Positions 3,476 through 59,931 of a stretch of 64,000 nucleotides of DNA are shown one piece after another. A model generated the notes under the pieces. That model did no database searches. It saw only the letters and a program-made list of their open reading frames with translations, and had not been told where the DNA came from. The DNA is from Bacteroidota bacterium (lineage in GTDB: Bacteria; Bacteroidota; Ignavibacteria; UBA10030; UBA8401): positions 434,001 to 498,000 of the forward strand of contig DATJPT010000008.1 of the NCBI GenBank assembly GCA_035506275.1. Reading direction: 5' to 3'. Each line of letters begins with the position of its first letter. The stretch's first letter is position 1. A program made the translations under genes and the position numbers.

Positions 3476-3491
3476 AGTCCTCTCACTCCGA

Positions 3492-6107
3492 TCAGTTCGC
3501 CGCCGGTACCACCGTACTCATCATAAAATGAATGTACGCCATCGTCGCATGGGCATAATCGAAGTAGCCATACCACAAAAGTCCAAGCACCGCGAAGACC
3601 ACAATGGCTATCGCGTAGATCTTGACCGAAGAGCTGTCGTAAATAATCGAGATCCCCTTCAGCGTTCTGAAAAGAATCCACACCATAACGGCCCCGAAAA
3701 TCACCAGAACAGGAACAACATAGACCTCGCTCTCCATCACCCTGTATAAGATCATTCCCAGCGGGATGAAGATCACCATCGGAAGCGTCGACCATACCGC
3801 CACAGAGTATGAATGGAAGAGGTAGACTTTGGTCCGGACAAAAAAAGAAAGGAACTGAACGAGGACCATGACAATAAACATCCAGGCAAAACAGACGAGT
3901 CCGCAATAAGCGATGCACTGAATCGGATGCCAGATGAGTTCGATGATGATCGCTTTAAGGGAATCCGAAGTGATGAACATCGTCAAGATATAATCGAGCA
4001 CCATGCTGGTGCGGAAATGATACAGCACGCTCGACACGACGATGGCAAACGTCACGGCGACGATCGCCGACAGGATCGCAGTGTGGAGATTCGACAATAT
4101 CCTCTGGTCGCGAATATCCGCGTAAAAATTGTACGGACGGCGCAGCGCCCGGAATACCCCTTCGCGGAAGCGGCGGTCGGAATTCAGAAGCCAGAAGAAG
4201 AGGATCAGGAGAACCAGGCCGAGGAGAACGTACGACACCGGCGACGAGGTTGAGTGAGTGCCGACCGGGAGCGCCGCGATCTTTTCTCCAAGAAACATCG
4301 AGCGAACGACGTCATAACTGACTTTTTTCTCCCGATTGAATTCGACGATGCCCTGCGTGTACAGGTCCGGTGTGTTCGATTGCACGGACAGCATCGGCCG
4401 GTCTCCGCGCCAATCGCTAAAGCTCCAGACGAAACTGGCGGCAATGTTGGACCCTTTGATCGCGTCGTAACGCTGAAAAAGATATCTCGCCTGCGCTTCC
4501 TGAGACATCGGATCGCTGTACCCGTTCCGGTTGCCCGTTTCCACGGCTTTGCCATACTGTCCCACGATCAACGGTTGCTCGGGATGAGAGGCCTTCCATC
4601 GCTGAAGCGAGGACGTGAATCCCTTCAGGTCGGCATTCACAAGCCGAACTCCGGCGAGGTCGACGAGGCTTGAATTTTGAACATCATCGAGGGAGAGTGA
4701 AATATAGTAGGTCAAGCGGCTATCCATCGACCGCGCCGTTCCTTGCAGCTGGTCGAGCAGAAGCTTGGCGCGCGGGTCGATCGATTCAAAGCCGTCGCCG
4801 AATCCCCAGGCGACGAGCGACGGATGACTTCTATCCCGACGGATCATCTCTTTCAGGTAATTATCGGCAAGCGCTCGGTAGTTTTCCGTCGAGAAAATAT
4901 CCGCGGGAGTTTCATACAACGGAATTTCCTCAAATGCCAGAAGACCGTACTGATCGCACAGGTCGAGCAAGTAGGGGTGGGGCGGATGGAATGAAAACCG
5001 GACAGCGTTAGCCCCGAGGTTCTTGATCAACGCAACGTCCTTCTCCATCTGCTCGTACGTCATCGCGCTTCCGTGATCGGGCGTGTCTTCTCCCCAGATC
5101 ATCCCCCGCAGCGTCACGGCAGCGCCGTTCAGCATGACGCTCTGCTTCTGTTTTCCAATTGTCCGGATCCCGGTATGGATGGTGCATTCATCAACCACGA
5201 CGCTGTTTTTCCCCTCCCCCGCCGCGAGGACGGCATGCAGGGTATAAAGATTCGGCTGATCCGGGCTCCACATTTTTGCCCCCGGGATCGTCACCGTCGT
5301 TTGCACCGATACGTCTTTGTTGATCCCGGGCGACAAGGAGATCGGAATGCTTTTGCCAGCCGGGAGACCGGTCGCTTTATCGGAACATTCAACCGTAAAA
5401 TTCAGAACAGCTGGCCCGCCATGATCGCCGCTGAAAAGTTTAGAAAAGTCGCGTCCGGAAATTACAGCATGGACATTCAGCTTGACCATTTTCGGGTCGA
5501 TGCTCTCTGTTTCGGAAACGAGGTCATCGATCCATACGAGCGGTGTCGCAACCAAAAAAACGTCGCGAAAAATACCTCCATAGTTTTTCCATCCGCCGAT
5601 CTGCTGACGAAGCGGAAGAGTGCTTCTGGAGTTCAGGGTATTGTCGACAACGATGCGAATGACATTCTCACTCCCGAACTGAATGGTATTTTCCGGCACG
5701 AGAAAAGAAAAGGAGGTGTATCCGCCTTCGTGCTTTCCGACAAAAACTTCGTTGAGATAAATCTCCGCCTGGTAATTGATCCCATAGGCCACAAATTTGA
5801 AGCTGTGGGAAGCGAGCAGTGCCGGCGGGAGGTCGAATTTCCTGGTGAAGATCACTTTCCCCTCAATATCGAACGCGGATGGAACGAGAACTTCTTTCCA
5901 CGTTGCCCCTTCATCCGTCGAACAATTCCATCTCCCGGACAGGTCTACAACAGACCTGGAGGGGGACGAATAATTAAGGATATCGGGCCGGGATTTTCTC
6001 CCGTTTTCGAAAATAAAGGTCTTTGAGGGAGCGAGAGTTGGTGCCGCGAGAAGAAAAACCAGTGCCAGGAGATAGCGACGGGATGAGATTTGCAATAATG
6101 GACTCAA
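3492..6107 (-). CDS. Glycoside hydrolase family 2-like protein fused to a polytopic membrane domain, probably catalytically dead
   Basis: The protein has 871 residues. Residues 10-28 resemble a signal peptide. Residues about 50-190 are a GH2 sugar-binding (jelly-roll) domain, about 190-315 an Ig-like domain, and about 316-610 a TIM barrel. A C-terminal tail at 624-850 carries about six hydrophobic segments. The barrel matches beta-galactosidase/beta-glucuronidase-type proteins (for example GANAVRFSFHPPHPYL, residues 365-380). However, the acid/base motif normally ending in N-E reads AWGFGDG at 433-439, and the nucleophile motif normally E-[YF]-G reads GQYG at 516-519. Both catalytic Glu are therefore apparently replaced. 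It may bind carbohydrate at the membrane rather than hydrolyse it. The start is TTG at 6107 without a clear ribosome binding site, so the N-terminus is uncertain. smc follows after 16 bases. Confidence 0.85.
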   Translation of the reverse strand: MSPLLQISSRRYLLALVFLLAAPTLAPSKTFIFENGRKSRPDILNYSSPSRSVVDLSGRWNCSTDEGATWKEVLVPSAFDIEGKVIFTRKFDLPPALLASHSFKFVAYGINYQAEIYLNEVFVGKHEGGYTSFSFLVPENTIQFGSENVIRIVVDNTLNSRSTLPLRQQIGGWKNYGGIFRDVFLVATPLVWIDDLVSETESIDPKMVKLNVHAVISGRDFSKLFSGDHGGPAVLNFTVECSDKATGLPAGKSIPISLSPGINKDVSVQTTVTIPGAKMWSPDQPNLYTLHAVLAAGEGKNSVVVDECTIHTGIRTIGKQKQSVMLNGAAVTLRGMIWGEDTPDHGSAMTYEQMEKDVALIKNLGANAVRFSFHPPHPYLLDLCDQYGLLAFEEIPLYETPADIFSTENYRALADNYLKEMIRRDRSHPSLVAWGFGDGFESIDPRAKLLLDQLQGTARSMDSRLTYYISLSLDDVQNSSLVDLAGVRLVNADLKGFTSSLQRWKASHPEQPLIVGQYGKAVETGNRNGYSDPMSQEAQARYLFQRYDAIKGSNIAASFVWSFSDWRGDRPMLSVQSNTPDLYTQGIVEFNREKKVSYDVVRSMFLGEKIAALPVGTHSTSSPVSYVLLGLVLLILFFWLLNSDRRFREGVFRALRRPYNFYADIRDQRILSNLHTAILSAIVAVTFAIVVSSVLYHFRTSMVLDYILTMFITSDSLKAIIIELIWHPIQCIAYCGLVCFAWMFIVMVLVQFLSFFVRTKVYLFHSYSVAVWSTLPMVIFIPLGMILYRVMESEVYVVPVLVIFGAVMVWILFRTLKGISIIYDSSSVKIYAIAIVVFAVLGLLWYGYFDYAHATMAYIHFMMSTVVPAAN

Positions 6108-6172
6108 AATATTTGGAGAAAAACGTGTGTTTTCGAGGATTTAGGGAACACGAACCCTTTATTCGGGATAAT

Positions 6173-6202
6173 ATAATACATCTGAGGCCGAAAAGCAATC
6201 AA
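6173..6202 (-). promoter_or_regulatory. Candidate promoter of the GH2-like gene
   Basis: On the minus strand, TTGATT (6202-6197) and TATTAT (6178-6173) are separated by 18 bases, about 65 bases upstream of the start codon at 6107. It lies just after the tpiA terminator, where a new promoter would be expected. The match to a sigma-70-type consensus is fair, not strong. Confidence 0.35.
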
Positions 6203-6245
6203 AAAAAAATGCTCTAAGTCTATAATTTACATAAGCTTAGAGCAT
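6201..6245 (-). terminator. Rho-independent terminator after tpiA
   Basis: A perfect 10-base-pair inverted repeat (ATGCTCTAAG at 6209-6218 and CTTAGAGCAT at 6236-6245, 17-base loop) is followed on the minus strand by an uninterrupted run of T. It lies 50 bases past the tpiA stop and is a textbook intrinsic terminator. Confidence 0.9.
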
Positions 6246-6294
6246 CTTAGGAATGTATACGTCGAGAGCAGGAGGCAGATTATAGCCGTTATTG

Positions 6295-7050
6295 CTAGTT
6301 TCTAGCCCCGGCTACAATTGCTGAAAACGAATCCGCCTTGAGGCAAGCTCCCCCCACAAGAGCGCCGTCAATATCTTGCTGACCTAAAAGTTCCTTTGCA
6401 TTCTCGGGTTTCACGCTCCCGCCGTATTGAATAATTAGCTTTTCTGCAACAGGCCATGAATACAATTGTGCAACAAGCTTTCGAATCAACTGATGAACTT
6501 CTTCTGCCTGCTGAGTCGTCGCCGTTTTACCGGTGCCGATCGCCCACACCGGCTCGTAAGCAACGATCACGCGAGCGAGGTCGGCCTCTGTCAGGCCGGC
6601 AAGGACGCCCTTCACCTGAGCCGTGATGACTTTATCAGTGATCCCCTTCTCCCGTTCTTCCAGCGTCTCCCCGACGCAGATGATCGATCTCAATCCTGCA
6701 GCGAGGACCTTCTTGGCTTTTTGATTGATGAGATCATTCGACTCGTGGAAATATTGACGCCGCTCCGAATGGCCGACGATGACATATTCGCAGCCGACCG
6801 ACTTCAGCATCTTGATCGACACTTCGCCGGTATACGCCCCGTCGTCATGAACGGACACGTCCTGAGCCCCCAGTTTTATCGAACTCCCCTTCACGAGCTG
6901 CTGTGCGACCACCAGGGAAGTATACGGTGGACAAATGATGACCTCAGCTTTCCCGCTCCCGACCAGGCTCTTAAGGCTGTTGATAAGCTCGGCAGTTTCA
7001 AAGACATCTTTATTCATTTTCCAATTTCCGGCAATAACTTTATTTCTCAT
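6295..7050 (-). CDS. tpiA: Triosephosphate isomerase
   Basis: Interconverts dihydroxyacetone phosphate and glyceraldehyde 3-phosphate in glycolysis and gluconeogenesis, as a cytosolic homodimer. The 251-residue length is normal. All catalytic residues are visible: Asn9 and Lys11 in GNWKMN, His94 in VGHSERR, Glu166 in AYEPVWAIGTG, and the phosphate-binding loop GGSVKPEN (residues 210-217). The ATG start at 7050 is preceded by a purine-rich AAGAAG element. It follows gatB at 57 bases and is closed by a strong terminator at 6201-6245, so it is probably the last gene of the sucC-gatB-tpiA transcript. Confidence 0.98.
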   Translation of the reverse strand: MRNKVIAGNWKMNKDVFETAELINSLKSLVGSGKAEVIICPPYTSLVVAQQLVKGSSIKLGAQDVSVHDDGAYTGEVSIKMLKSVGCEYVIVGHSERRQYFHESNDLINQKAKKVLAAGLRSIICVGETLEEREKGITDKVITAQVKGVLAGLTEADLARVIVAYEPVWAIGTGKTATTQQAEEVHQLIRKLVAQLYSWPVAEKLIIQYGGSVKPENAKELLGQQDIDGALVGGACLKADSFSAIVAGARN

Positions 7051-7107
7051 AGGTATTTCTTCTTTCGCTTGTGAGGTTGAGGATTAAATGTAATGGGCAC
7101 CGATTTA

Positions 7108-8559
7108 TTATTGGTTCAATTTGGTTTTCAGAATGTCGTTGACGATTTTCGGATTGGCTTTGCCTTTTGTTGCTTTCATCGTTTCGCCGACGAAAAATCC
7201 GAACAGCTGCGTCTTCCCGTTCCGGTATTGTTCCCTCTGCGACGGATTCTTCGAGAGGATCTCATCGACAATTTTATCTATCGCCGAAGCGTCCGAGAGC
7301 TGGACAAGCCCTAGACGCTCGACGATCGTCTTCGGGCTCTCTTTCGTCTTGACCATCTCTTCGAACACTTCCTTCGCGATTTTTCCGCTGATGACGCCGT
7401 CGGCGATCAGGTTGACCATCGCGGCCAGATTCTCCGGCGAGATCGGAAAATCCTGCAGCGCGATATGCTCGTCGTTCATGACCCGAAGAACATCGGTCAT
7501 CACCCAATTGCTGATCGCTTTATACCCGTCCGGATTCTTCCGTGAAATTTTTGAAACGGCGTTTTCGTAATAATCCGCCAGCGGCTTTTCTAGCGTCAGA
7601 ATGCCAGCATCATATTTCGGCAGTGCATACTCACCGACGAACCGATCGCGCCGCTCTTTGGGAAGCTCTGGCAGGGAAGATCTCACTCGTTGGATCCACG
7701 GTTCATCGACCAGCACCGGCACCAGGTCCGGATCCGGGAAATACCGGTAGTCGTGCGCTTCTTCCTTGCTCCTCATGGAGACGGCCACATTCTTGTCGGC
7801 GTCCCAAAGCAGCGTTTCCTGCACAACCGCGCCGCCGTCCTCGATCAACACGATCTGGCGGTTGATTTCATAGTCAAGGGCCCGTTCGACATTGCGGAAT
7901 GAATTCATGTTCTTCACTTCGGTCTTCGTCCCGAATTTCTTTTCCCCTTTCAACCGGACCGAAACGTTCGCGTCGCAGCGGAGGCTTCCTTCTTCCATGT
8001 TGCCGTCGCATATTCCGAGGTACGTCACGATCTGCTTGATCATCGAAAGATACTCGTATGCTTCGTGCGAATTGCGGATGTCGGGCTCGCTGACAATCTC
8101 GATCAGCGGGACGCCGCAGCGGTTCACATCGACGAGCGTATCGACATCCACATCATGGATCGACTTTCCGGCGTCCTCCTCCATGTGAATACGGGTGATG
8201 CCGATGCGCTTCGTCGAACCATCCTTCAACTCCACGTCCACATGGCCGTTCGCGCAAATCGGCTCTTCATATTGTGAGATCTGATACCCCTTCGGCAGAT
8301 CAGGATAGAAATAATTTTTCCTGGCGAAAATGGATCTCGGCGCAATGGAACAATCAGTTGCAATCCCCATCTTCAGAATGAATTCGACCACCTCTTTGTT
8401 GAGAACAGGGAGCACGCCGGGCATGCCGAGACATACCGGACACGAGTTCGCGTTCGGAGTATTTCCGAACTTGGTGGTGCATGCGCAAAAGGCCTTTGAA
8501 TGTGTCAGCAGCTGGGCATGCACTTCAAGTCCGATCACAGCTTCGTATCTGTCGTTCAT
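7108..8559 (-). CDS. gatB: Aspartyl/glutamyl-tRNA amidotransferase subunit B
   Basis: Subunit B of GatCAB, the kinase/tRNA-binding component that converts misacylated Glu-tRNA(Gln) or Asp-tRNA(Asn) to the cognate amide form. The 483-residue length is typical. The N-terminus [17 protein letters not shown] and the Cys-containing motif C-x-C...CPVCLGMPG are family signatures. [16 protein letters not shown] and the C-terminal YqeY-like helical domain, ending [12 protein letters not shown], are also present. The presence of GatB implies the indirect pathway for Gln-tRNA and/or Asn-tRNA; gatA and gatC are not in this window. It starts 23 bases after the sucC stop. Confidence 0.98.
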
Positions 8560-47111: not shown

Positions 47112-47234
47112 AAGTGATGCTGTTTCCCGAACCAGCGCTCACACGTCGTTAGATTTTTCCCCTTCAACCCGTATTGAAACCCTCTCCGATTTTCGATATA
47201 TTTGTCCAACCAACATCAGCCACATCACGCACGA

Positions 47235-48653
47235 ATGCCGAAGCAGCGCCGTAACGATTTCCTGATCCCGCTCCTTGCCGTTGTCTCGGACGCCGCCGCC
47301 ATTGAAGCGGCATTTCTGGCCTCGTACTGGCTCCGTTTTTTTTCTCCGCTGACGTCAACCTTCGAAGTCACGCTCGGCATTCCGCCGCTGTCGACGTACG
47401 TTGGCAGCTCGCTGATCTTCATCCCGATATGGCTGGCTGTTTTCCAATCGCGCAAGCTGTACGGCGCGCGCCGCAATTCGCATCTGAGCGACGAGTTCTT
47501 TGCGATCGTCCGGGTGGTGACCATCGGCCTGCTCATCATCATGAGCGCCACGTTCTTCTATCGAGGATTCTCGTATTCGCGCGGCGTCTTCATTCTCTTG
47601 TGGGCGACCTCCATCGCAACGATCACCATCGGCCGATTTTTGATCATGGAGTTCGAGAAGTTTCTCTACCGGCAAGGGAAAGAATTGAAGACCGTCGCCA
47701 TTGTCGGCTCAAACACTACCGCCGACGGCATTTTTTCGCTTCTTTCTTCCCATCATTCTCTCGGATACGAAGTGGTCGGCTATTATGCCGAAACTCCGGC
47801 TCACGCTTCTCTGAATCTTTCCCGCGCAACGTATCTCGGCTCGCTCAAAGAACTTCCCGCAGGTGTCACCACGTACCGTCTTCAAGCCGCATTGATCGCG
47901 CTGCCGTACTCCGACCATCCGCAGCTCCTGGAAATGATCCGTGATGCTGAAGGGGTGAACGTTGAACTGATGATGGTCCCCGACATGCTCGATATGATGA
48001 CCAGCCGCGTCCGCATTCAGGATATCGAGGGGATCCCGTTTCTCAAGATCAAGGAAATACCGCTCTCAACCTGGAACCGCATCAGCAAGCGCGCCTTCGA
48101 CGTCGTTTTCTCGACCGTCGTTCTTCTGCTGACTCTCCCGGTCACGATCATTCTTGCTGTGATCATCAAAGCGACCTCCCGCGGTCCGATCTTTTTCAAC
48201 CAGGAAAGAATCAGCCTAGACGGCAAACCCTTCAGCGTCATTAAGTTCAGGACCATGCGGACGGACGCGGAGGAATCGACCGGTCCGGTGCGTGCCAAGA
48301 AGGGAGATGCCCGTGCGACATCGATCGGAAGAATTCTCCGCCGGACGAGCCTGGACGAGCTTCCGCAATTATGGAATGTGCTCACCGGACACATGAGCAT
48401 CGTGGGTCCGAGACCGGAGCGGCCGTTTTTCGTTGAACAGTTCAAAGAGAAAATTCCGCGCTATCTTGAACGTCATCGTGTAAAAACCGGAATGACGGGA
48501 TGGGCGCAGGTCAACGGACTCCGCGGCGATGCCCCCATCGAAGAGCGGACCAAGTACGACATCTATTACGTCGAAAATTGGTCTCTCGTATTCGACATGA
48601 AAATCATCTTAAAGACGATCCGTGCGGTGATCTTCGGGAAGGATGCTTATTGA
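47235..48653 (+). CDS. Exopolysaccharide polyprenyl glycosylphosphotransferase
   Basis: Transfers the first sugar phosphate from a nucleotide sugar to undecaprenyl phosphate, starting a polysaccharide repeat unit. It has 472 residues from ATG at 47235 (MPKQRRNDFLIPLLAVVSDA). Four N-terminal membrane helices are followed by a Rossmann-like middle domain. The C-terminal catalytic domain (WbaP/WcaJ type) starts KRAFDVVFSTVVLLLTLPVTIILAV and contains RTMRTDAEEST, RRTSLDELPQLWNVLTGHMSIVGPRPERPFFVEQF and GMTGWAQVNGLRGD. No other polysaccharide genes are adjacent apart from the divergent lipid cluster, so the polymer is unknown. Confidence 0.95.
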   Translation: MPKQRRNDFLIPLLAVVSDAAAIEAAFLASYWLRFFSPLTSTFEVTLGIPPLSTYVGSSLIFIPIWLAVFQSRKLYGARRNSHLSDEFFAIVRVVTIGLLIIMSATFFYRGFSYSRGVFILLWATSIATITIGRFLIMEFEKFLYRQGKELKTVAIVGSNTTADGIFSLLSSHHSLGYEVVGYYAETPAHASLNLSRATYLGSLKELPAGVTTYRLQAALIALPYSDHPQLLEMIRDAEGVNVELMMVPDMLDMMTSRVRIQDIEGIPFLKIKEIPLSTWNRISKRAFDVVFSTVVLLLTLPVTIILAVIIKATSRGPIFFNQERISLDGKPFSVIKFRTMRTDAEESTGPVRAKKGDARATSIGRILRRTSLDELPQLWNVLTGHMSIVGPRPERPFFVEQFKEKIPRYLERHRVKTGMTGWAQVNGLRGDAPIEERTKYDIYYVENWSLVFDMKIILKTIRAVIFGKDAY

Positions 48654-48685: not shown

Positions 48686-48982
48686 ATGATCCCGTTGTTT
48701 GTGTTCTACGTTCACACCATTGCGGCAGTGTACGCTTTCACACAGCAGTACCAGGAGGAAGGCATTGGAGCCGGCGCCCTGGCGGTGGCCTTCATGGGAA
48801 TTATTTTTTCAGTCGGATGGAGCATCAGCACGTTCATATTGAAATTTATTATCAGCGAAAGAGGATTCGGGCTGTACTGCAACCGGGACGCTCTTTCTCT
48901 CGCCCTGTTGACGGCGGGTGAGGCGATATTTTACTATTTGTATCTCAGGGGGATGAAAAAGAAAGGCGCTACTTCATCTTGA
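48686..48982 (+). CDS. Small hypothetical membrane protein
   Basis: 98 residues with three hydrophobic segments, near 4-20, 27-54 and 69-88, and a basic C-terminal tail (RGMKKKGATSS). I do not recognise the family. It follows the glycosylphosphotransferase by 32 bases on the same strand. Its last 14 bases overlap the 3' end of the convergent TonB gene. Codon use and hydrophobicity look like a real gene, but no ribosome binding site is obvious. Confidence 0.6.
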   Translation: MIPLFVFYVHTIAAVYAFTQQYQEEGIGAGALAVAFMGIIFSVGWSISTFILKFIISERGFGLYCNRDALSLALLTAGEAIFYYLYLRGMKKKGATSS

Positions 48983-49763
48983 AGTTGAAGGTGATGGTGC
49001 ATTGCTGGTCGAGCGCCGGCTGAGAGCTTTGCAGGGCCTGAAATCTCCACAGCTTGACCTCTTTGATGGCTGCATCTTCCAATCGCGTATCCCCTTTTCG
49101 GAGCGGTTGAATCGACTTGACGGTTCCCCGCGGCTGAACGACCACGCGCAGCCGAATTTGCGCTTCGACGTTCACGCCTTGCGGATATTTCGGCAGGTCC
49201 CCCGAGAGAAGGTTCCGCACTTTTCCCCCCGCCCACTGGACATTATAGGAGATATTATCCCCGATCGTGCCACCGCCTCCTCCGGCATTAAAGGGCGGCG
49301 CCACGTCTGATCCGTTCGGGACTCCCGGTTTTCCCGTCGCATCTTTTTCTCCCCCCGGAAACCCCGGCGTCGAGGCAGACGGGGCCTCCCTCTGAACATC
49401 CGCCATGCCTTTTCGTTCTCCGGGCATCGCTACCGGATTGTCATTCTCTTCTATTTTCTTGGTCGGCCGCTCGCTGACGACTTCATCGGACGGAAGGGCA
49501 TGCTGCTGGGTGGGAAGATCCACGCCGACCCCCGATGCGGGAACGCCGGTCTGTCCAGCCGGAGGAGGAGCGGCTCCTTCGGGAAGCACGTCGCCTTTGG
49601 GCATCGGTCCAAAGGAAGAGGCAGATCCTCCTCCAAAAGAGAACTCCACAAATTCCTGCTGTTGTTGATCGGGCTGCGCCGGTCGGACAACAAACAGCAA
49701 ACATCCCGCGGCAATGTGGAAGAGAATGGAACCGGTCCAGCCCAGTGTAGTTTCGCGTGACAT
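48969..49763 (-). CDS. tonB: TonB family energy transducer
   Basis: 264 residues: a membrane anchor at about 8-25 (GWTGSILFHIAAGCLLFVV), a long Pro/Gly-rich periplasmic spacer (about 30-165), and a C-terminal TonB-like domain from about 180 (KYPQGVNVEAQIRLRVVVQPRGTVKSIQPLRKGD) with AAIKEVKLWRFQAL before the end. The middle spacer suits a protein crossing the periplasm. It is the last gene of the TPR-barrel-SPOR-ExbB-ExbD-TonB operon, 10 bases after exbD. It would couple the proton gradient to an outer-membrane partner, most simply the barrel protein of the same operon. Confidence 0.9.
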   Translation of the reverse strand: MSRETTLGWTGSILFHIAAGCLLFVVRPAQPDQQQQEFVEFSFGGGSASSFGPMPKGDVLPEGAAPPPAGQTGVPASGVGVDLPTQQHALPSDEVVSERPTKKIEENDNPVAMPGERKGMADVQREAPSASTPGFPGGEKDATGKPGVPNGSDVAPPFNAGGGGGTIGDNISYNVQWAGGKVRNLLSGDLPKYPQGVNVEAQIRLRVVVQPRGTVKSIQPLRKGDTRLEDAAIKEVKLWRFQALQSSQPALDQQCTITFNFKMK

Positions 49764-49773
49764 GGGAGGCTTC

Positions 49774-50187
49774 TTATTGTCCTGCCTGCGTCGGCGATTC
49801 TGTTGCGATCATGAACCGCTGCGCGCCGACTCCTTTGGCAATGTCGATCAAATCGACGGCACTCTGCAGGGATACTGACTGGTCGGCCCGCACGACGATC
49901 ACATGGTCGCGGTCACGGTCGATGATGGGGATAAGTTTTTGCGCCAGCGTCGTTCTTGTGACCTCCTCATTCCCCAAAAAGATCCTTCCCGTGCTTGTCA
50001 ACGTCACGACCGATTGACGGTCGGACTGTACTTCCCCCGTCTGCATCTTCGGCAGTTGTACTTTAATGCCGGGGTTGACGACGAAAGACCATGAAAGGAG
50101 AAAAAAGATGAGCCACTGCATCACCATATCGGCGAACGATGCATAATTGAAGGCCGGATTAAATTTATTTCGCGCGGGGAATTTCAT
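49774..50187 (-). CDS. exbD: ExbD-type biopolymer transport protein
   Basis: 137 residues with one N-terminal membrane helix (about 20-37, SFADMVMQWLIFFLLSWSFVV). Asp20 corresponds to the essential Asp of ExbD/TolR/MotB helices. A periplasmic domain follows (TGRIFLGNEEVTRTTLAQKL, VRADQSVSLQSAVDLIDIAK). Fourteen bases separate it from exbB and 10 from tonB. Confidence 0.93.
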   Translation of the reverse strand: MKFPARNKFNPAFNYASFADMVMQWLIFFLLSWSFVVNPGIKVQLPKMQTGEVQSDRQSVVTLTSTGRIFLGNEEVTRTTLAQKLIPIIDRDRDHVIVVRADQSVSLQSAVDLIDIAKGVGAQRFMIATESPTQAGQ

Positions 50188-50201
50188 TGCATCTCCGATC
50201 G

Positions 50202-50912
50202 TTAATCTTTCGGCTCGAAGAACTCGTCCTCTTCGGAGAACACTCTCTTCGCACGCTGATCCTTGCCGCCGGCGTGGGGAGCCGGTTCGGCTGCGGGGTG
50301 CGCATTCGGCTTCATATAGCCGAGAAATTCATCAGTTGCGGCTTCGAGAGAGAACGTGATCTGACTCACTCTCCCCACAAAATAATTATAGAACCCGAGC
50401 GCAGGAATGCCGACGACCAGACCGAACGCGCTGGAGAGCATCGCTTCCCATATTCCTCCGGCGAGGTTTCCGGAGTTCACGTTCCCCCCGAGCATCTCGA
50501 TCGTCCGAAAAGCATTGATCATTCCCACCACCGTCCCAAGGAACCCGAGCATCGGCCCGATGCCGGCGATGTTCGCAAGAATTCCGAGATGATTCTCGAG
50601 ACGGTTCACTTCTTCCTTCCCCGCGGATTCGATCGTCGACCGTACCGCTTCGGGGCCGCTCTCGATACTGGCAACCCCTTTGCGCAGGACCGTCGGAACG
50701 GTCGCATTACTTTGTGAACAGGCATTGAGGGCGCCGACGATATCGTTCCGAGACAAGGCGCTGCGCAGCTTCAGCATCAGGGGCTTCGCATCGAACTTCG
50801 CCCGGCTTAGGACGAAGAACCGTTCGAAGATGATCGCCACCGCGAGAAGAGAACACAAGAAGATCGGCCACATCACAATCCCGCCCTTCAAAAAAAGCTC
50901 AAGTAGATTCAT
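50202..50912 (-). CDS. exbB: ExbB/TolQ/MotA-type proton channel
   Basis: 236 residues with three hydrophobic segments: about 12-28, then LGILANIAGIGPMLGFLGTVVGMINAF (about 107-133) and SAFGLVVGIPALGFYNYFV (about 157-175). GPMLGFLGTVVGMI is the MotA/TolQ/ExbB signature. It assembles with ExbD to drive TonB. The C-terminal tail is charged. Its position between the SPOR gene and exbD puts it in the envelope operon. Confidence 0.95.
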   Translation of the reverse strand: MNLLELFLKGGIVMWPIFLCSLLAVAIIFERFFVLSRAKFDAKPLMLKLRSALSRNDIVGALNACSQSNATVPTVLRKGVASIESGPEAVRSTIESAGKEEVNRLENHLGILANIAGIGPMLGFLGTVVGMINAFRTIEMLGGNVNSGNLAGGIWEAMLSSAFGLVVGIPALGFYNYFVGRVSQITFSLEAATDEFLGYMKPNAHPAAEPAPHAGGKDQRAKRVFSEEDEFFEPKD

Positions 50913-50937
50913 CTATGCTCCTTTACGCAGTCTGGAT

Positions 50938-51612
50938 TTATTTGCTCAAACGAACAACCCAATAGCCGCCTTCAAGCATGTGCGCCATTTTTTCGGCGGA
51001 ACCGCGGGCCGCTCTATCAGTATCGAATCGTCCGACGTAGACACGGAACCGTTTCTCTCCGCCGCCGATGTTTGCCTTTTCCACAAAGGCAGGGAACCCG
51101 GCCCGCGTCATGACATCCGCTTCAATTCTTGCCTTCTGTTCGCTGGACCATGAAGAGACTTGAACGCTGTACCGGCCGCTTGCCGACATCGAAATTTTCG
51201 GCATCATGCTCGAGGAAACCGTAGAATTTGCCGTCGACGGGGCGCTCATTGCCGCCGGCTTCACGCCCGGTTTTGCCGGCTCCTTCTTTTCTCCAGCCGT
51301 TCCCGGTTTCTCTTTGAACTCTACCAACCCTTCATTCTCCGGCGGCGCCGATGTGATCGCAGCCGCGGTGTCTTCAGCCGTTGCAGGCGGAGGAGTGACA
51401 ACGACCGGCGCAGCTTTTTTCTTGCCGATGATGCCGGCTTTGTTCAGGGCAAAGTACCCGCCCCCGAGAACGATGACCACCACGAGAATGATGAACACTG
51501 CTGACGGCATCCCGGCAATTTTTCCGCCGCCGGATCCATCCCCGGGCTTGCCGGCCGGTCTCACTCCCGGCATCGGAGCGGGAGCACCAGCTTTAAGATT
51601 TAGGTTTGGCAT
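50938..51612 (-). CDS. SPOR-domain membrane protein
   Basis: 224 residues. A cytosolic Pro/Gly-rich N-terminus, one transmembrane segment at about 36-55 (SAVFIILVVVIVLGGGYFAL), a Pro/Ala/Thr-rich linker, and a C-terminal SPOR domain (about 147-222: GRYSVQVSSWSSEQKARIEADVM, RFRVYVGRFDTDRAARGSAEKM). SPOR domains bind glycan strands lacking stem peptides at division sites. Here it lies next to ExbB/ExbD/TonB, which suggests anchoring the energised complex to the cell wall. Confidence 0.92.
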   Translation of the reverse strand: MPNLNLKAGAPAPMPGVRPAGKPGDGSGGGKIAGMPSAVFIILVVVIVLGGGYFALNKAGIIGKKKAAPVVVTPPPATAEDTAAAITSAPPENEGLVEFKEKPGTAGEKKEPAKPGVKPAAMSAPSTANSTVSSSMMPKISMSASGRYSVQVSSWSSEQKARIEADVMTRAGFPAFVEKANIGGGEKRFRVYVGRFDTDRAARGSAEKMAHMLEGGYWVVRLSK

Positions 51613-51658
51613 GTTCTACTTCCTCCTTCCTATGTGATAAATAAGAATATTTTTCTGA

Positions 51659-53344
51659 TCACCATGCGAATGACACCCCCAGAGAAGCAAACAATGGACG
51701 CTCGACATATCCATCCCAGGTATAGTACTGCCGGTCCAAAAGATTGTCCACCTGCAGCAGGGCGCGAAAATTCTCAAAGAGTTGATACTCGGCTTTGCCG
51801 CCGACATTCACGTACCCCGCGTTGGCATGGGTGTGCGAGAAATCTTTCCACCGCTGCGAGAAATATTCCGCGAACAGTTCTACCACGATGCCGTTGCTGA
51901 ACGAATGCCGGTAGATGCCGCTCAACGTAAGCAACGGAATGTTCGGCACTGCGTTTGCTGAATCCTCGGCCTGCGTCGAATTCAGCGATCCCGAGAGCGT
52001 CGCCGAATTTGACTGATTGAAAGCATACGAGCCTTCCAGGTCAAAGCGGGCAACGGAGACATCCGGAAGATACATAACATCCCAGACTTTTGCACTATTT
52101 AATTCAACAAAGAAGGGAAAATTCCGCTCGGAATAATAGGAGAAGGAACCGCTCCAGTAGAGTCTGTCGCTGAAGGCGTATTGCGTGCCCAGCGTAAGCG
52201 CAAATGGAATTTCGTTCGGCCTGAGTTCAAGCCGATTTTGGATATAGTTATCGGCATTAACGAGCGAGCCAAGAGTGTTTCTTTCGACGGTCGGCGCGAC
52301 GGAAAAGTAAACCGTGGCTGCATCGCTCGCGAAATACCGAAGCTCGGCCCCCGGGAAAAACCTGCCGCTGGAGGTCGAAACATTTCCTCTGTAAATGAAT
52401 TGCTGGACGCTCACGAGAGCTTCAAGGTCCGGGAGAAAGAACTTTTCCCCGGAAAGGCGGAGGTCGAACCACTCCGGCGCGTGCGTGCCGGTATTCGGCG
52501 GAAGCTGCATCGAGACACCGGAAACGATATATTCCATCGACCCGCGGAACTGGATATCGTTTTCTTTTGTCGATCCGGACACGAGTAAGCCAAAATCGTT
52601 CTGCGAAGAAGCTGTCGAGTCGTCCAGCGAGGTCCCGCTCCACGAGATACGGGCCGAATAATCGAGCGGATTGCTGAGAAGATCGGTATCCGTGGTCCGC
52701 GAAGAAAGCCCCAGATTAACATTGACGTTGTCGAGAGTCCTTTGCTGAGACGGGGTCGAAGAGCCGTAGGCCCTGTAGGTTTGGCCGGAAAAATCCAAAC
52801 CGCCGTTCAACCTGCTTCCCGCTAAAATTCCGAATGTCTTCGGTGAGAGGTAGTCTCCCTGAATTCCTATACCAGTCTTTTGCCAATCCGCGTTGGTCAC
52901 CTGGCCGCTGGTCGAAGCGTAGTTTGCATGAAAGAGAACCCCCCCTGCGTCATAATTTTTCCCAAACCATCCGTCGAGGAACGGCGACGTGTAATTTCCG
53001 ATGCCCCCCTGCACTCTTCCGCTCATCTCGTTTGCCACCCCGCCGAGATCCTTCTGCACTTTCGTACCGCTTCCAATCCCCGCATCCTTCGCACCGGGCG
53101 TCGGCGACCCTGCAACGTAGACCTTGTCTTCCTCGATCATCGACTTCAACGAGACGGGAAGGTCGATCGTCTCCTGTCCGGTGATGAGAAATTCGGGAAG
53201 GTCGATCTTGGGAAGGTTCGCCTGGCTCTGATCCGGCACCGTTGCATCGCGCTGCGCGGGTTCTTTTTTCTCCTGCGCTGAAAGCGAGACAGCAAAAACA
53301 ATTACGCCGACAGCCAGTAGGCTGTTGTGGCTAGGCAGATTCAT
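51659..53344 (-). CDS. Plugless TonB-dependent-receptor-like outer-membrane beta-barrel
   Basis: 561 residues. The N-terminus has a signal peptide (SLLAVGVIVFAVSLSAQ, about 8-24), then a soluble segment with KIDLPEFLITGQETIDLP. From about residue 105 alternating hydrophobic/polar strands form a large barrel that ends LFASLGVSFAW; a terminal aromatic residue is the outer-membrane insertion signal. Late strands resemble TonB-dependent receptors (LQVDNLLDRQYYTWDGYVERP). I find no plug domain, so it is not a standard siderophore-type receptor. The EFLITGQ segment could contact TonB. The first base of its ATG is the last base of the upstream TPR stop (TGATG). Confidence 0.8.
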   Translation of the reverse strand: MNLPSHNSLLAVGVIVFAVSLSAQEKKEPAQRDATVPDQSQANLPKIDLPEFLITGQETIDLPVSLKSMIEEDKVYVAGSPTPGAKDAGIGSGTKVQKDLGGVANEMSGRVQGGIGNYTSPFLDGWFGKNYDAGGVLFHANYASTSGQVTNADWQKTGIGIQGDYLSPKTFGILAGSRLNGGLDFSGQTYRAYGSSTPSQQRTLDNVNVNLGLSSRTTDTDLLSNPLDYSARISWSGTSLDDSTASSQNDFGLLVSGSTKENDIQFRGSMEYIVSGVSMQLPPNTGTHAPEWFDLRLSGEKFFLPDLEALVSVQQFIYRGNVSTSSGRFFPGAELRYFASDAATVYFSVAPTVERNTLGSLVNADNYIQNRLELRPNEIPFALTLGTQYAFSDRLYWSGSFSYYSERNFPFFVELNSAKVWDVMYLPDVSVARFDLEGSYAFNQSNSATLSGSLNSTQAEDSANAVPNIPLLTLSGIYRHSFSNGIVVELFAEYFSQRWKDFSHTHANAGYVNVGGKAEYQLFENFRALLQVDNLLDRQYYTWDGYVERPLFASLGVSFAW

Positions 53345-56300
53345 CAGAGCTGTTCCAGTTTTCGAAGTCTTTGTTCGGCTTCGGCCGCAAGGTCCCCGCC
53401 GTGTTTAACGACAAAACTGTAGGCGTCCTTTGCCTTCTCTTTCTGATTTGTTTTCTCGTAACAGTCGCCGAGGTTGAAATACGATTTGACGATCCAGTCA
53501 TCGGCCGAAGGAAAAACATATTTCACCCGAAGAAACGAGAGGATGGCTTCGGAATAATTCTTCGACGCCTGCTGGGTGGCCCCCACCGCATACTGCGCCT
53601 CTGCCCCCAGCTCGTCGGTCCTGTTCGTCGCAACAGACTTAAAATACTCAAGCGCCGGAGCATAATTCTCTACCGATTCGTTCATCCAGCCGAGGGCGAC
53701 CTTGCTCCTGTCGCTTGCGGCCGTTTTTGGATATTGCGCGATCGTTGCCTGGAATTTTCTGACGGCGTCATCGGTCTGATTGGTAGATTTCAGCACCACG
53801 CCCTGCTGATAGGAGGCTTCGGCCGCGTCTTCGGACTTTGGATACTGGTCCAGAATTTTTTGGAACGATGCCAGCGCATCCGCCGGCTTCCCGAGCTGGG
53901 CATATATTCCTCCCTGCTCGAACAATGCTGCGCTTGCGAGCTTGTTGGACGGATATTTTTCCACGACCGACTGGAATGATTGAAGCGCCTCTTGCCGGTT
54001 GTTCAGCGCGGCGTAGCATTTTCCCGTCCAATAATATGCGTCCGGAGCAAGCTTGCTCTTTGGGAATCGCTGCAGCAAATCCTGGTAGGCCTTGACGGCG
54101 TCCTCGTACTGCTTCTGGCTGAAATAGATGTCCGCTTTCTTATAGAAGAGTTCATCCGCAGATCTTGCGTTCGGATTATTCTTCACATACTCATCGATGG
54201 TCCGCGCCGCATCCCCCGGTTTGTCGAGAAGGACGTAGCAATACTGGATGCCGTTGACCGCATCGCTCGCGTACGCCGAGCCGGGAAATTTTGCTACAAC
54301 ATTTTGGTATGCCTGGATCGCCTCGTCGTATTTCTCCAGATTATAGTATGAATCGCCGATACTGTAGTAAGCCTTGGGAACAAGTTCGCTCTTCGGGTAT
54401 CGGGAGACGACGTTCTGAAAGACAGCGATCGCCTTGTCGTATTTTTTCGTTTGAAAATAGATCCATCCGATGCCGTAATCCGCATCATCGGCGAGGTCGG
54501 AATTCGGGAAATGGGCGATCAGATTCTCGAAATCCTTCACGCCGATGTCAAGTTTGTCGGATTTGTAGTCAGATTGCGCAAGCTGATAATATGCATAGTC
54601 GATCCCGCTTTGCGACGGGAACGATTGAATCGCTCCTCTGTACGCTTCGGCAGCTTTGACGTATTCTTTCATATAGTAGTACGAGTCGCCTAGCCGGAGC
54701 TGCGCATCAAAGACAAATTGTGAAGACGTCCCGGCGTTCAGTACCTTGCGGAATGATTCTGCCGCCTCATTGTATTTTCCTTCCTTGTAATAGCTCCAGG
54801 CGAGTCCATACTGAGCATCAAGGAGTTTCGGCTGGTTTGATCCTTGCTTCAAATACTGAGAATAGTACTTTTCCGCTTCCGCATACTGGCCGGCCTGGAA
54901 CTCCGATTCCCCGGTCCAAAAGAGGGCTTCGGGCGCCTTGACGTTCTGCGGGTACTCATTCAAGAAAAAAACGAATTGAGCAGCAGCATCCGGAAATTTC
55001 CCCATTTTATACAGCGACCAGGCTTCCTGGAAGGACGCGATTCCCTTTACCGAATCATTCGCCGGAGAAAGCGACCTGATCGACCGGAATGCCTGCGCCG
55101 CATCCTCGTAATTCTTCTTTGCGATATAGGATTCGCCGAGCATCCGGTATGCATCAGCCGCGGCATCACCCGACGGATATTTCTTTGTCACTTGCACGAA
55201 GAACGGAATTGCTGCGTCATAATTTTTTTGATCGTAATACACCATTCCCGATTCATACAATGCATTGTCTGCATATTCGCCATTCGGCCTTTGCGCAACG
55301 ACCCGGTCATAGATCTCCAAAGCTCCCTTCGTATCCCCCGAAAGACGGACGGCCTGGGCCTTGCGGAAAAGAGAATTATAGGCAATGTCGTCCGAGCCGG
55401 CTGCCAGATCGCCGAAAATCCTGGCCGCTTGCGAGAATTCGTTCGTCTTCAAGTAGGTCCAACCGATCGAATAGGTTACAGTGCGCACAAGCTGGTTGGA
55501 GGGATAATTCCTGCAGAATTCTTCATACAGCGACCGCGCTTTCGGATAATTCTGCAAATTATAATAATCCTCTGCAACGCAATAATCCGCCCCCGCTTTC
55601 TCGCTTGAGTCGGTGATGGAAGGTTTTGCCGCGGTAAGAAAATCAATGCTCTTCTGGAATTGCCCGCTTTTGCTGTAACAATCACCGATACGAACAGAAG
55701 TGGTGGAAAGAAGTTCGCTCTGCTTCTTTTCCACAAGGAGCTTTTGATAGTAGCCTATCGCTTTTTGATACTCCTTCTGTCGTTCTGCAGTCCATCCAAG
55801 CGAGTAGAGCGCGTAATCCGAGAGTCTGTTTGAAGGATATTTTTCAGCGCTGAGGGTATAGTACTTTGACGCAGACGCTAGGTCGTCAGTCTTGAAATAT
55901 GCCTCTCCTGCCCAATACGCCGCCTCGCCAGCCAGGTCATTCTCGCTGTAGTTTTCTACGATCTCTTTATAGACCGGGATCGCCTCCGCAAAATGATGGA
56001 GTTTGAAATCGGCTTCGCCTATCCTGAAGAGGGCGTCGGGACGAAGCTTGTGCCTCGGGAATTCTCGGATAAACGCCTGCAAATCGGCGATCGCCTCGTC
56101 ATAGTTTCCCATCGCAAAACGGCATTCGGCATAGAGAAAGATCGCGTCGGGACGTTTCGTGCTGGCGGGATACTGATCTATGAATTTTTGGAATTGGTCT
56201 GAGGCGAGTTGGTAAAGCTTATCCTGGTATAACCCAAACGCAAACGCATAGTCCTGGGATTCCTGGACTCCGGTAGTATTGATTTGAGAAATGAGAGGCT

Positions 56301-56388
56301 GCACCGACCCGAGGCCGAGCAGACAAGATAGCAGCAAAAGATGAACAATCCTTCCCCTTGAAAGCTTTTCCTTCCAGAAATTGTCCAT
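53344..56388 (-). CDS. Large exported TPR-repeat protein (about 25 repeats)
   Basis: 1014 residues. The N-terminus has a signal peptide or anchor at about 13-32 (IVHLLLLSCLLGLGSVQPLIS). The rest is almost entirely tetratricopeptide repeats, including repeated K-Y-P-x-S-x-x-A-x-x-A-x-Y-x-x-G elements and many near-copies of Y-x-x-A-x-x-x-F/Y-Q-x-x-[VI]. The spacing resembles BamD/YbgF-type TPR proteins of the outer-membrane periplasmic face. It heads the operon ending with TonB, and its stop overlaps the barrel gene start. It probably scaffolds partners of the barrel or the peptidoglycan. Confidence 0.88.
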   Translation of the reverse strand: MDNFWKEKLSRGRIVHLLLLSCLLGLGSVQPLISQINTTGVQESQDYAFAFGLYQDKLYQLASDQFQKFIDQYPASTKRPDAIFLYAECRFAMGNYDEAIADLQAFIREFPRHKLRPDALFRIGEADFKLHHFAEAIPVYKEIVENYSENDLAGEAAYWAGEAYFKTDDLASASKYYTLSAEKYPSNRLSDYALYSLGWTAERQKEYQKAIGYYQKLLVEKKQSELLSTTSVRIGDCYSKSGQFQKSIDFLTAAKPSITDSSEKAGADYCVAEDYYNLQNYPKARSLYEEFCRNYPSNQLVRTVTYSIGWTYLKTNEFSQAARIFGDLAAGSDDIAYNSLFRKAQAVRLSGDTKGALEIYDRVVAQRPNGEYADNALYESGMVYYDQKNYDAAIPFFVQVTKKYPSGDAAADAYRMLGESYIAKKNYEDAAQAFRSIRSLSPANDSVKGIASFQEAWSLYKMGKFPDAAAQFVFFLNEYPQNVKAPEALFWTGESEFQAGQYAEAEKYYSQYLKQGSNQPKLLDAQYGLAWSYYKEGKYNEAAESFRKVLNAGTSSQFVFDAQLRLGDSYYYMKEYVKAAEAYRGAIQSFPSQSGIDYAYYQLAQSDYKSDKLDIGVKDFENLIAHFPNSDLADDADYGIGWIYFQTKKYDKAIAVFQNVVSRYPKSELVPKAYYSIGDSYYNLEKYDEAIQAYQNVVAKFPGSAYASDAVNGIQYCYVLLDKPGDAARTIDEYVKNNPNARSADELFYKKADIYFSQKQYEDAVKAYQDLLQRFPKSKLAPDAYYWTGKCYAALNNRQEALQSFQSVVEKYPSNKLASAALFEQGGIYAQLGKPADALASFQKILDQYPKSEDAAEASYQQGVVLKSTNQTDDAVRKFQATIAQYPKTAASDRSKVALGWMNESVENYAPALEYFKSVATNRTDELGAEAQYAVGATQQASKNYSEAILSFLRVKYVFPSADDWIVKSYFNLGDCYEKTNQKEKAKDAYSFVVKHGGDLAAEAEQRLRKLEQL

Positions 56389-56410: not shown

Positions 56411-56436
56411 TGTATTAACTTAATCAATTTAATACA
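56411..56436. promoter_or_regulatory. AT-rich inverted repeat upstream of the TPR operon
   Basis: TGTATTAA (56411-56418) and TTAATACA (56429-56436) form an exact 8-base inverted repeat with a 10-base spacer, 23-48 bases before the operon's first start codon (56388). The position suits a regulator-binding site or promoter-region palindrome. No regulator gene is adjacent. Confidence 0.35.
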
Positions 56437-56571
56437 TAGAAGAGTTCGTGTCAAGGGGACGGAAACGGGGGTGTGACCCAGGCGATCAGTTGTCCGGGGT
56501 ATCCAAAAGGCATCAATTTTCGGTTTGGCGGGAAAAAGAAGGCTTGGATTGCGATGCCACCCCCCAAGAAA

Positions 56572-59500
56572 TCACGCGCGGTGGAATTCCTGCAGGCTCT
56601 TCACCGACATTTTTCCATGCCGGATTTCTTCGATTGCTCGTACCGCGGTCGCCGCGGCCGAAAGCGTTGTGATGAACGCAACCTTGTGTTCGATCGCGGC
56701 CCATCCGATAGAGTACTCGTCAAAACGGGATTCTTCGCCGAGCGGGGTATTGATGACCAACGCCACTTCACCGTTCTTGATATGGTCGACGATGTTCGGC
56801 CGCCCTTCCTGAACCTTAAATACCTGCTTGTTGGCGATCCCGTGAGAGGTGAGAAATTTTGAAGTCCCTTCAGTAGAGACGATATCGAAACCGAGCTGAA
56901 TATAATCCTTCACGATCTCGAGCGTCTCTTCAGTTTTGTCATTTTCGTTGACGCTGACAAAGACCGTTCCTCGCTCAGGCAGCGCGTTCCCTGCGCTGAT
57001 CTGAGATTTGGCAACAGACGCTCCGAACGAAGAAGAAATTCCCATGACCTCCCCGGTCGAGCGCATTTCGGGACCGAGAAACATCGTGACTTTCGGGAAT
57101 TTGGAGAAGGGGAATACGGCCTCCTTCACCGAAATATGCTTGACCTTTTTGAAATCGAAACCTAAAACGCCGAGTTCCTTCAACTTCTTCCCTGCCATCA
57201 CTTTTGCGGCAACCTTCGCCAACGGAAGCCCGGTGGCTTTGCTGACAAACGGCACCGTGCGCGACGCGCGAGGATTGACTTCCAGCACGTAAACAACATT
57301 GTCCTTCATCGCGAACTGCACGTTGATCAGGCCGACGACGCGGAGGGCAAAAGCAAGTTTCTTCGTGATCTGAATGATCTCGTCGGTCTTCTCGGCGCTC
57401 AGCATGAACGGCGGAAGCGCGCACGCGCTGTCGCCGGAGTGAATTCCGGCTTCTTCAATATGCTCCATCACGCCGCCGATCAGAACGTCATCCCCGTCGC
57501 ATACCGCGTCGACGTCGAACTCAAAAGCGTCCTCTAAGAAATTATCGATCAAGATCGGATGCTCGGGAGAAACGTCCACAGCCCGTTTCATGTATTCCTT
57601 CAGCGAGGAGGTGTTGTAGCAGATCTCCATCGCGCGGCCCCCAAGGACGTACGACGGACGAACAAGCACAGGAAACCCGATCTCTTCGGCAACGACGACG
57701 GCGTCCCGAATGGAAAATGCGGTCCCGTACTTCGGATGGGAAATTTTATGCTGACGGAGGAGCGCACCGAAGCGTTTCCTGTCCTCGGCAAGGTCGATGC
57801 CTTCCGTCGACGTTCCGAGAATGCGCACTCCATGCGACTCGAGCTCTTTCGCGATCTTCAGCGGTGTTTGCCCGCCGAAGCTGACAATGATCCCTTCCGG
57901 CTTCTCATACTCGCAGATATTCAGCACATCTTCGACCGTCAGCGGCTCAAAATAAAGTTTGTCGGTCGTATCGTAATCGGTGGACACCGTCTCCGGGTTG
58001 CAATTGATCATGATCGTCTCATATCCTTCGTCGCGAAGGGCATAGACGCCGTGAACACAGCAATAATCGAACTCGATGCCCTGCCCGATTCTATTCGGTC
58101 CGCCGCCGAGGATGATCACTTTCTTTTTTGGCGAGCGGACCGACTCGTTCTCCTTCTCGTATGTCGAATAGTGATACGGCGTGTGGGCTTCGAATTCTGC
58201 GGCGCACGTGTCCACCGTTTTGAAGACAGGGATCACGCCCATCTTTTTCCGCAGATCTCTGACGGCGTCCTCGTCCGTCTTCCAGAGATGAGCGAGCTGT
58301 TTGTCGGAAAATCCGTACCGCTTCGCTTCTAAGAGAACTTCGGCAGTAACAGAGGAAAATCTATTCCTGGCAGAATGAGATCTGACATCCTCATCGTGCT
58401 TCCATACCAGCGACCACAGCTCGTCCTCTGCATCGACGATCTGCTTGATATTGAACAGGAACCAGGGGTCGATCTTCGTAAGCGAAAATATCTCTTCGAT
58501 CGTGAATCCAAGCTGGAAAGCATACCTGATGAAGAAAATATTGCTCGGTTTAGGCCTCCGCAGCTGGTCTTTGACCTTGCGGACCCATTCGGTCTTCGAT
58601 TTTTCGGAAAGCTTTCGGTGGTCGAAGAGGTCTTTTCCGTCCGCTCCGAGTCCAGCCCTTCCTGTTTCGAGCGAGCGGAGGGCTTTCTGCAGCGCCTCTT
58701 TGAACGTACGCCCGAACGCCATCGCCTCGCCGACCGATTTCATCTGCACGCCGAGCGTTTCGTCGACGCCTTTGAACTTCTCAAAATCCCACCGGGGGAT
58801 CTTCACGACGGTGTAGTCGATCGTCGGTTCAAACGATGCGGGAGTGAGTTTCGTGATGTCGTTTGGAATTTCGTCGAGCGTGTAGCCGACCGCAAGCTTG
58901 GCGGCTATTTTTGCGATCGGGAACCCTGTCGCCTTTGAAGCGAGCGCCGAGCTTCGCGAGACGCGCGGGTTCATCTCGATGATGTACATGCGGCCGTCAG
59001 CCGGATTGATCGCGAACTGAACGTTCGATCCCCCGGTGTCGACGCCGATGGCACGCATCACCGTGATCGCCGCGTCGCGCATAAATTGATATTCTTTATC
59101 GGTCAGCGTCTGCGCAGGGGCAACGGTGATCGAATCGCCGGTGTGCACCCCCATCGGGTCCAGATTCTCGATCGAACAGATGATGACGACATTGTCCTTT
59201 GTGTCGCGCATTACCTCGAGTTCATATTCCTTCCAGCCGATGACCGATTCTTCGATAAGGACTTCGTGGATCGGACTGTTCGTGATGCCGTGCTCAACGA
59301 TGCTGCGGAATTCTTCAATGTTGTAGGCGATACCGCCGCCGGTTCCGCCAAGAGTGAACGAGGGCCGGATAATGATGGGAAAACCGATACCATCGACAAT
59401 TTTCAGAGCTTCCTCATAGCTGTAAACAAAACCGCCGCGGGGCATATGAAGTCCGGCGGCGCGCATCGTCTTCTGAAACAGCTGGCGGTCCTCCGCCTTC

Positions 59501-59931
59501 CTGATCGCATCGAGCTTCGCTCCGATCAGCTCGACGCCGTATTTCTCGAGGGTCCCCCGTTCGGCGAGGGCGACCGCTGTGTTGAGAGCGGTTTGCCCTC
59601 CCATCGTCGGAAGGATCGCATCCGGCTTTTCTTTCTCGATGATCATTTCAACAAAGTCCGGGGTGATCGGCTCGACGTAGGTCGCATCCGCAAGGTCCGG
59701 ATCCGTCATGATCGTGGCCGGATTGCTGTTGATCAGAATAACGCGGTATCCTTCTTCGCGAAGAACCTTGCACGCCTGTGTTCCCGAATAATCGAACTCG
59801 CATGCCTGGCCGATGACGATCGGACCGCTGCCGATGATGAGAATCGATTTGATGTCTGTACGTTTTGGCATTGACGGAAGAGTTGTTTTAGGTACACAAA
59901 AACCTGACCGCATTGCGCGCGTCAGGTTCAT
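56572..59931 (-). CDS. carB: Carbamoyl-phosphate synthase large subunit
   Basis: Makes carbamoyl phosphate from bicarbonate, ammonia and two ATP for pyrimidines and arginine. It has 1119 residues from ATG at 59931, or 1099 from the conserved ATG at 59871 ([30 protein letters not shown]). The two ATP-grasp halves are clear ([17 protein letters not shown] near residue 190; [18 protein letters not shown] in the second half), followed by the C-terminal MGS-like allosteric domain. ATG 59931 has GAAGGA five bases upstream while 59871 has no such site, so initiation at 59931 is favoured. The 20-residue leader encodes a terminator-like hairpin (59898-59928). carA is not adjacent. Confidence 0.95.
59898..59928 (-). 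terminator. Terminator-like hairpin in the carB leader (downstream of cstA)
   Basis: AACCTGAC (59901-59908) and GTCAGGTT (59921-59928) form an 8-base-pair stem with a 12-base loop, followed on the minus strand by TTTTTGTGT. It lies about 100 bases after the cstA stop and inside the extended carB leader reading frame, three bases past the 59931 start codon. Confidence 0.65.

Follow-up and report, generated by a model that had tools for sequence, protein, structure and literature searches.

The window, the whole 64,000-nucleotide stretch of DNA analysed here, carries six open reading frames on its minus strand (56388-48969) that form one operon in the order TPR, barrel, SPOR, ExbB, ExbD and TonB. 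From the TPR gene to tonB the intergenic spacing is -1, 46, 25, 14 and 10 bp, and the ATG of the barrel gene overlaps the stop codon of the TPR gene, the arrangement described in the original prediction. The first gene (53344..56388) encodes a 1014-aa periplasmic protein with 14 TPR_6 stretches and a Sec-type signal sequence without a lipobox cysteine. It is followed by a 561-aa plugless, 22-strand outer-membrane barrel related to TonB-dependent receptors (51659..53344), and by a 224-aa SPOR protein (50938..51612; PF05036, 2.5e-9). The transmembrane segment of the latter, as read from the sequence, makes it a single-pass inner-membrane protein with a short cytoplasmic N-terminus and a periplasmic C-terminal SPOR domain. 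The remaining genes encode a 236-aa ExbB/TolQ-type motor subunit (50202..50912; MotA_ExbB PF01618, 1e-29), a 137-aa ExbD/TolR-type motor subunit (49774..50187; PF02472, 2.4e-22), and a 264-aa TonB (48969..49763; TonB_C, 4e-7; TIGR01352, 7.6e-8). Pfam and NCBIfam searches back every one of these assignments except the barrel, and so bear out the TPR protein, the SPOR protein and the full ExbB-ExbD-TonB motor proposed earlier. The motor subunit stays below the NCBIfam equivalog thresholds for both TolQ and ExbB.

TonB consists of a transmembrane helix with a Ser12-x3-His16 motif, a Pro-rich linker and the TonB C-terminal domain. Since both this motor contact and the transmembrane Asp20 of ExbD are present, the motor looks functional, a prediction made from the two residues Asp20 and His16. 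A possible promoter (TTGACA-17-TAAATT, minus strand, 56426..56454) lies 38 bp upstream of the TPR start; it is a consensus match only, and a weak one, as the search returned 10 sites in the region against 5.0 expected. Directly upstream of the operon and on the same strand is carB (56572-59931), as is also the case in locus L045. At the other end, a gene for a 98-aa membrane protein (48686-48982) is convergent with tonB, and in several families (L031, L047, L050 and L051) homologues of this protein are encoded next to the sugar-phosphate transferase gene (47202-48653).

The barrel has no Pfam match, including none to the plug domain PF07715, and only weak matches of its C-terminal strands to TonB-receptor models. 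Sequence searches found no solved relative of either the barrel or the SPOR protein. Using an alignment of 33 relatives, we generated an AlphaFold2 model (mean pLDDT 79.5) in which residues 1-102 are disordered and approximately 22 strands run from residue 107 to 560. The best 50 matches of this model in a fold search of the PDB are all TonB-dependent receptors, with FrpB at the top (E 1.8e-17). A barrel without a plug, as had been suggested, is thus what both the model and the domain search return. The predicted fold indicates that the barrel is a descendant of TonB-dependent receptors that has kept a TonB-box-like motif. A reading of the barrel as a BAM subunit was considered and rejected; the BAM barrel of Bacteroidota, BamG, is a FadL homologue.

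The TonB-box-like motif lies in the disordered N-terminal arm, which is otherwise poorly conserved across the 33 barrels. The one element kept in the arm is PEFVITG (PEFxITG), with columns P50, E51 and I54 at least 90% conserved; in the window it reads PEFLITGQ (barrel residues 50-57; 53174..53197, minus strand). We built a TonB-box matrix from the TonB boxes of the plugged receptors of the same genome, and its best match falls exactly at PEFxITG in 31 of the 33 barrels. Scored one at a time against shuffled versions, a majority of the 33 barrels, though not every one, fall below p = 0.05. By this matrix PEFxITG is TonB-box-like and a putative TonB contact. Both exceptions (L047 and L051) belong to genus g17, and no TonB gene was found at either locus. 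The third of the three g17 genomes likewise does not have the motif.

The genes stay together in many Bacteroidota lineages, and the set is found across much of the phylum. Because the barrel alignment was too variable, named genomes were scanned with the TPR alignment alone, which gave matches in Ignavibacteria, Ignavibacteriae, Melioribacter, Ignavibacterium, Candidatus Kryptonium and Chlorobiota as well as a single record of Candidatus Latescibacterota, and so placed the window in the Ignavibacteria (phylum Bacteroidota in GTDB). In all 72 assessable loci found this way, the gene that immediately follows TPR is the barrel, which excludes chance as the source of the pairing. All sources together gave 136 distinct barrels; of the 129 for which this could be assessed, 124 have TPR as the neighbouring gene. 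Enough flanking sequence was available for 115, with TonB near the barrel in 97, SPOR in 93 and ExbB in 77. The barrel is thus not split from its motor set in most genomes; neither such a split nor a plug in the predicted structure, the two outcomes that would have spoken against the original prediction, was observed. Barrel relatives in other Bacteroidota classes align to the window's group with a probability of 100 (E 1.2e-41) and are identical in type of fold, and the gene order is often kept there as well, for example as TPR-barrel-HU/SPOR-ExbB-ExbD-TonB in L132 and L138. Beyond the six genes, the neighbourhoods of the retrieved loci contain no constant neighbour and no recurring transporter, SusD or substrate gene. 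The Latescibacterota locus (L243), whose record bears the name of a different phylum, has TPR-barrel-ExbB-ExbD-TonB without SPOR. From this locus, a set of the six-gene type may predate the Bacteroidota.

The wall-binding slot varies between lineages: it holds a plain SPOR protein in the window's family, an HU-CCDC81-SPOR protein in other classes, and, in the sister family f3, an outer-membrane OmpA protein encoded between TonB and TPR. The original claim that no OmpA-type gene is present is therefore correct for the operon in the window but does not extend to this sister family. HU-CCDC81 domains in the SPOR-gene slot were seen at L132:6468-7628, L131:6659-7828 and L138:6723-7823, fused to SPOR in L131 and L132; a link from the nucleoid or cytoplasm to the septal wall is possible. 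In L122, barrel-SPOR-ExbB-ExbD-TonB occurs without TPR, and upstream of it (3177-7407) are ftsK, a lolA-like gene and a gene for an LPG-synthase-type membrane protein. The lolA-like match is weak and just below cut-off, and a clear lolA lies upstream in L047. Some lineages (f30 and f25) have the TPR-barrel pair without SPOR or motor at the locus. Several families lack ExbB/ExbD at the locus, and some of the TonBs there have lost the motor-contacting His, so energisation is not universal. In raw counts, His is missing from the TonB helix at 15 of the 29 loci without a motor and at 1 of the 72 with one. A tree-corrected test on independent pairs went in the same direction and was not significant, and we therefore treat the association as a lead only. 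Where the motor is missing, the system may in essence be a passive tether.

The rest of the window's genome has another ExbB-TonB pair, on contig C6, as well as 23 matches to the plug domain at scattered sites, from which we conclude that the operon's motor set is not the general uptake motor. The operon itself contains no plugged receptor or SusD, consistent with its reported dissimilarity to nutrient-uptake loci. The absence of Pal and TolB noted for the operon extends to the whole genome: an OmpA-domain search found no Pal in either, and no TolB_N was found in the genome, where only partial propellers match TolB. The OmpA domains above cut-off directly follow MotA-type genes, in the MotB position, and a fourth match is below cut-off and inside a 1595-aa frame.

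Across the phylum sample, full-length TolB occurs in 53 genomes, all of family f26; the next-best match elsewhere is a partial propeller (5e-35). Family f26 corresponds to the Chlorobiaceae, the green sulfur bacteria, with the FMO protein in 21 of 21. (In G131, the FMO match at C1:1687396-1687998 is partial, covering positions 1-202 inside a 3524-aa open frame unlike that of its relatives, and reflects a fusion or an assembly error.) Within f26, L173 has tolR-tolA-tolB-pal on one contig and L170 has tolB-pal, and the TolB and Pal domains were confirmed in a second f26 contig. None of 61 f26 genomes has a full-length plugless barrel, and the matches to the barrel model in this family are the last third of longer, plug-bearing receptor frames. 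An initial tally across the phylum, with barrel matches in 331 of 345, is accordingly not a count of plugless barrels, since its f26 matches are plugged receptors and other weak matches may be likewise. Among the sampled genomes, then, the family with TolB is without the plugless barrel and the families with the barrel are without TolB. This exclusion rests on one clade and hence possibly on one event. Since the only sampled family without the barrel is also the only one with Tol-Pal, the operon is probably the Bacteroidota's own way of coupling the outer membrane, the cell wall and the inner membrane.

We favour, with moderate confidence, a TonB-powered machine that couples outer membrane, peptidoglycan and inner membrane and does the job of Tol-Pal, with the barrel acting as a mechanical anchor rather than a transporter. 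ExbB-ExbD would move TonB, whose C-terminal domain would grip the TonB-box-like motif on the disordered arm by strand addition, so that the pull on the arm draws the outer membrane inward. Contact with the wall would come from the SPOR or OmpA partner, and the TPR protein would be the periplasmic scaffold that keeps barrel, wall and motor in register. In other bacteria, SPOR domains reach the septum through denuded glycans. The inner-membrane SPOR protein of the operon would likewise bind bare glycan strands at the division site and place the machine there, and the anatomy of the operon would suit a role in constriction or envelope integrity. Besides the plugless receptor fold with its motif, the interchangeable wall binder, the separate uptake motor and the complementary distribution with TolB, this coupling is supported by the near-absolute pairing of TPR and barrel with SPOR, ExbB, ExbD and TonB alongside, the lack of any constant neighbour supplying a substrate, and the joint loss in g17, where the motif is gone and the two assessed loci are also without TonB. 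The fullest form of the reading is close to an even call, namely that most Bacteroidota possess an undescribed machine in which a receptor devoid of plug and substrate is the anchor that TonB pulls toward septal peptidoglycan, and which replaces Tol-Pal, is mutually exclusive with it and can decay to a motor-less tether.

The same receptor ancestry and TonB-box-like motif could also be expected of a TonB-gated channel, in which the arm is a minimal plug removed by TonB, a common solute or an exported molecule passes through, and TPR and SPOR are merely positional. At about 100 residues the arm is long enough to enter the lumen. However, it has no predicted structure and is poorly conserved outside the motif, the barrel has no recurring transporter, SusD or substrate gene next to it, a SPOR or OmpA partner is not expected for uptake, and the barrel is missing where TolB is present; we regard such a channel as unlikely. 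Slightly less likely still is a conveyor that carries lipids, lipoproteins or surface polymers across the envelope, for example as part of the surface-lipoprotein route of Bacteroidota. Transport of a large substrate could be within reach of a hollow 22-strand barrel combined with a very long TPR superhelix and a motor. Two distant lineages (L122 and L047) have LolA-like genes immediately upstream, and the surface-lipoprotein flippase of Bacteroidota is still unidentified (PMC12578637). LolA is nevertheless not a constant neighbour, the conveyor leaves the wall-binding SPOR/OmpA slot unexplained, and an abundance of surface lipoproteins in Ignavibacteria is not established.

A purely passive tether between inner membrane, wall and outer membrane, with the motor as an optional addition, would fit the many loci that have TPR, barrel, SPOR and TonB but not ExbB/ExbD, as well as the raw excess of His-less TonB helices at motor-less loci. 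We consider it improbable as the general explanation, given that roughly two thirds of the assessable loci carry ExbB/ExbD, among them the window, where Asp and His are intact, and that the His excess is not significant once corrected for the tree. The energised coupling machine remains the reading we prefer. Bacteroidota are dominant in guts and sediments, and how they couple the outer membrane to the wall and inner membrane without Tol-Pal is an open question, for which this conserved operon of motor and plugless receptor offers a concrete, single-locus candidate. If correct, a nutrient receptor has been turned into a structural, force-bearing part, and the pull of TonB can serve a barrel that has nothing to open.

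The motor itself is known, but as far as the open literature searched goes, its combination with a plugless receptor and with TPR and wall-binding partners is not described, in agreement with the original view that no system of this composition had been reported. The closest functional parallel we propose is Tol-Pal (TolQ-TolR-TolA-TolB-Pal-CpoB), whose operon likewise encodes a motor driven by the proton motive force, a transducer of the TonB/TolA type, a protein that binds the wall and a periplasmic TPR protein, and whose taxonomic distribution is complementary in the genomes sampled. The operon differs in having no Pal or TolB, in its output to a plugless receptor barrel, and in its wall binder, an inner-membrane SPOR protein (an OmpA protein in f3). 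Many matches to the YbgF model fall in the repeats of its TPR protein, which at approximately 1000 aa compared with approximately 260 aa nevertheless differs from CpoB in length and architecture. In a 2025 survey no tol-pal loci turned up in Bacteroidetes, and PorE, a cpoB-tolB-pal fusion tether, was proposed as the stand-in for Tol-Pal functions; the survey mentions neither SPOR nor the six-gene composition (PMC12204202). As a single lipoprotein, PorE carries an OmpA-type domain but has no dedicated motor (PMC12204202), and its TolB and Pal parts have no counterpart in the operon. PorE and the operon's machine could act together.

With the Ton system (ExbB-ExbD-TonB and its transporters) the operon shares the motor, the TonB C-terminal domain, the 22-strand receptor barrel and the TonB-box-like motif. 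In contrast to that system, it has no plug domain or substrate genes and its motor is dedicated to one barrel, while the plugged receptors of the same genome have the other ExbB-TonB pair, on C6, available to them. The Agl-Glt gliding machinery of Myxococcus xanthus likewise combines a TolQR-type motor (AglRQS), TPR and outer-membrane proteins, and a transducer, GltG, with a TonB-like Pro-rich motif (PMC3169522). Agl-Glt, however, has other genes in another order, has no SPOR and functions in motility, and the NCBIfam models GltJ and GltC match the operon weakly, far below their cut-offs. Finally, the Bacteroidota BAM complex with BamG is also a phylum-specific outer-membrane machine with an extra barrel (PMC12578637, PMC12611786), but BamG has the 14 strands of a FadL homologue, whereas the barrel of the operon is of the 22-strand receptor type.
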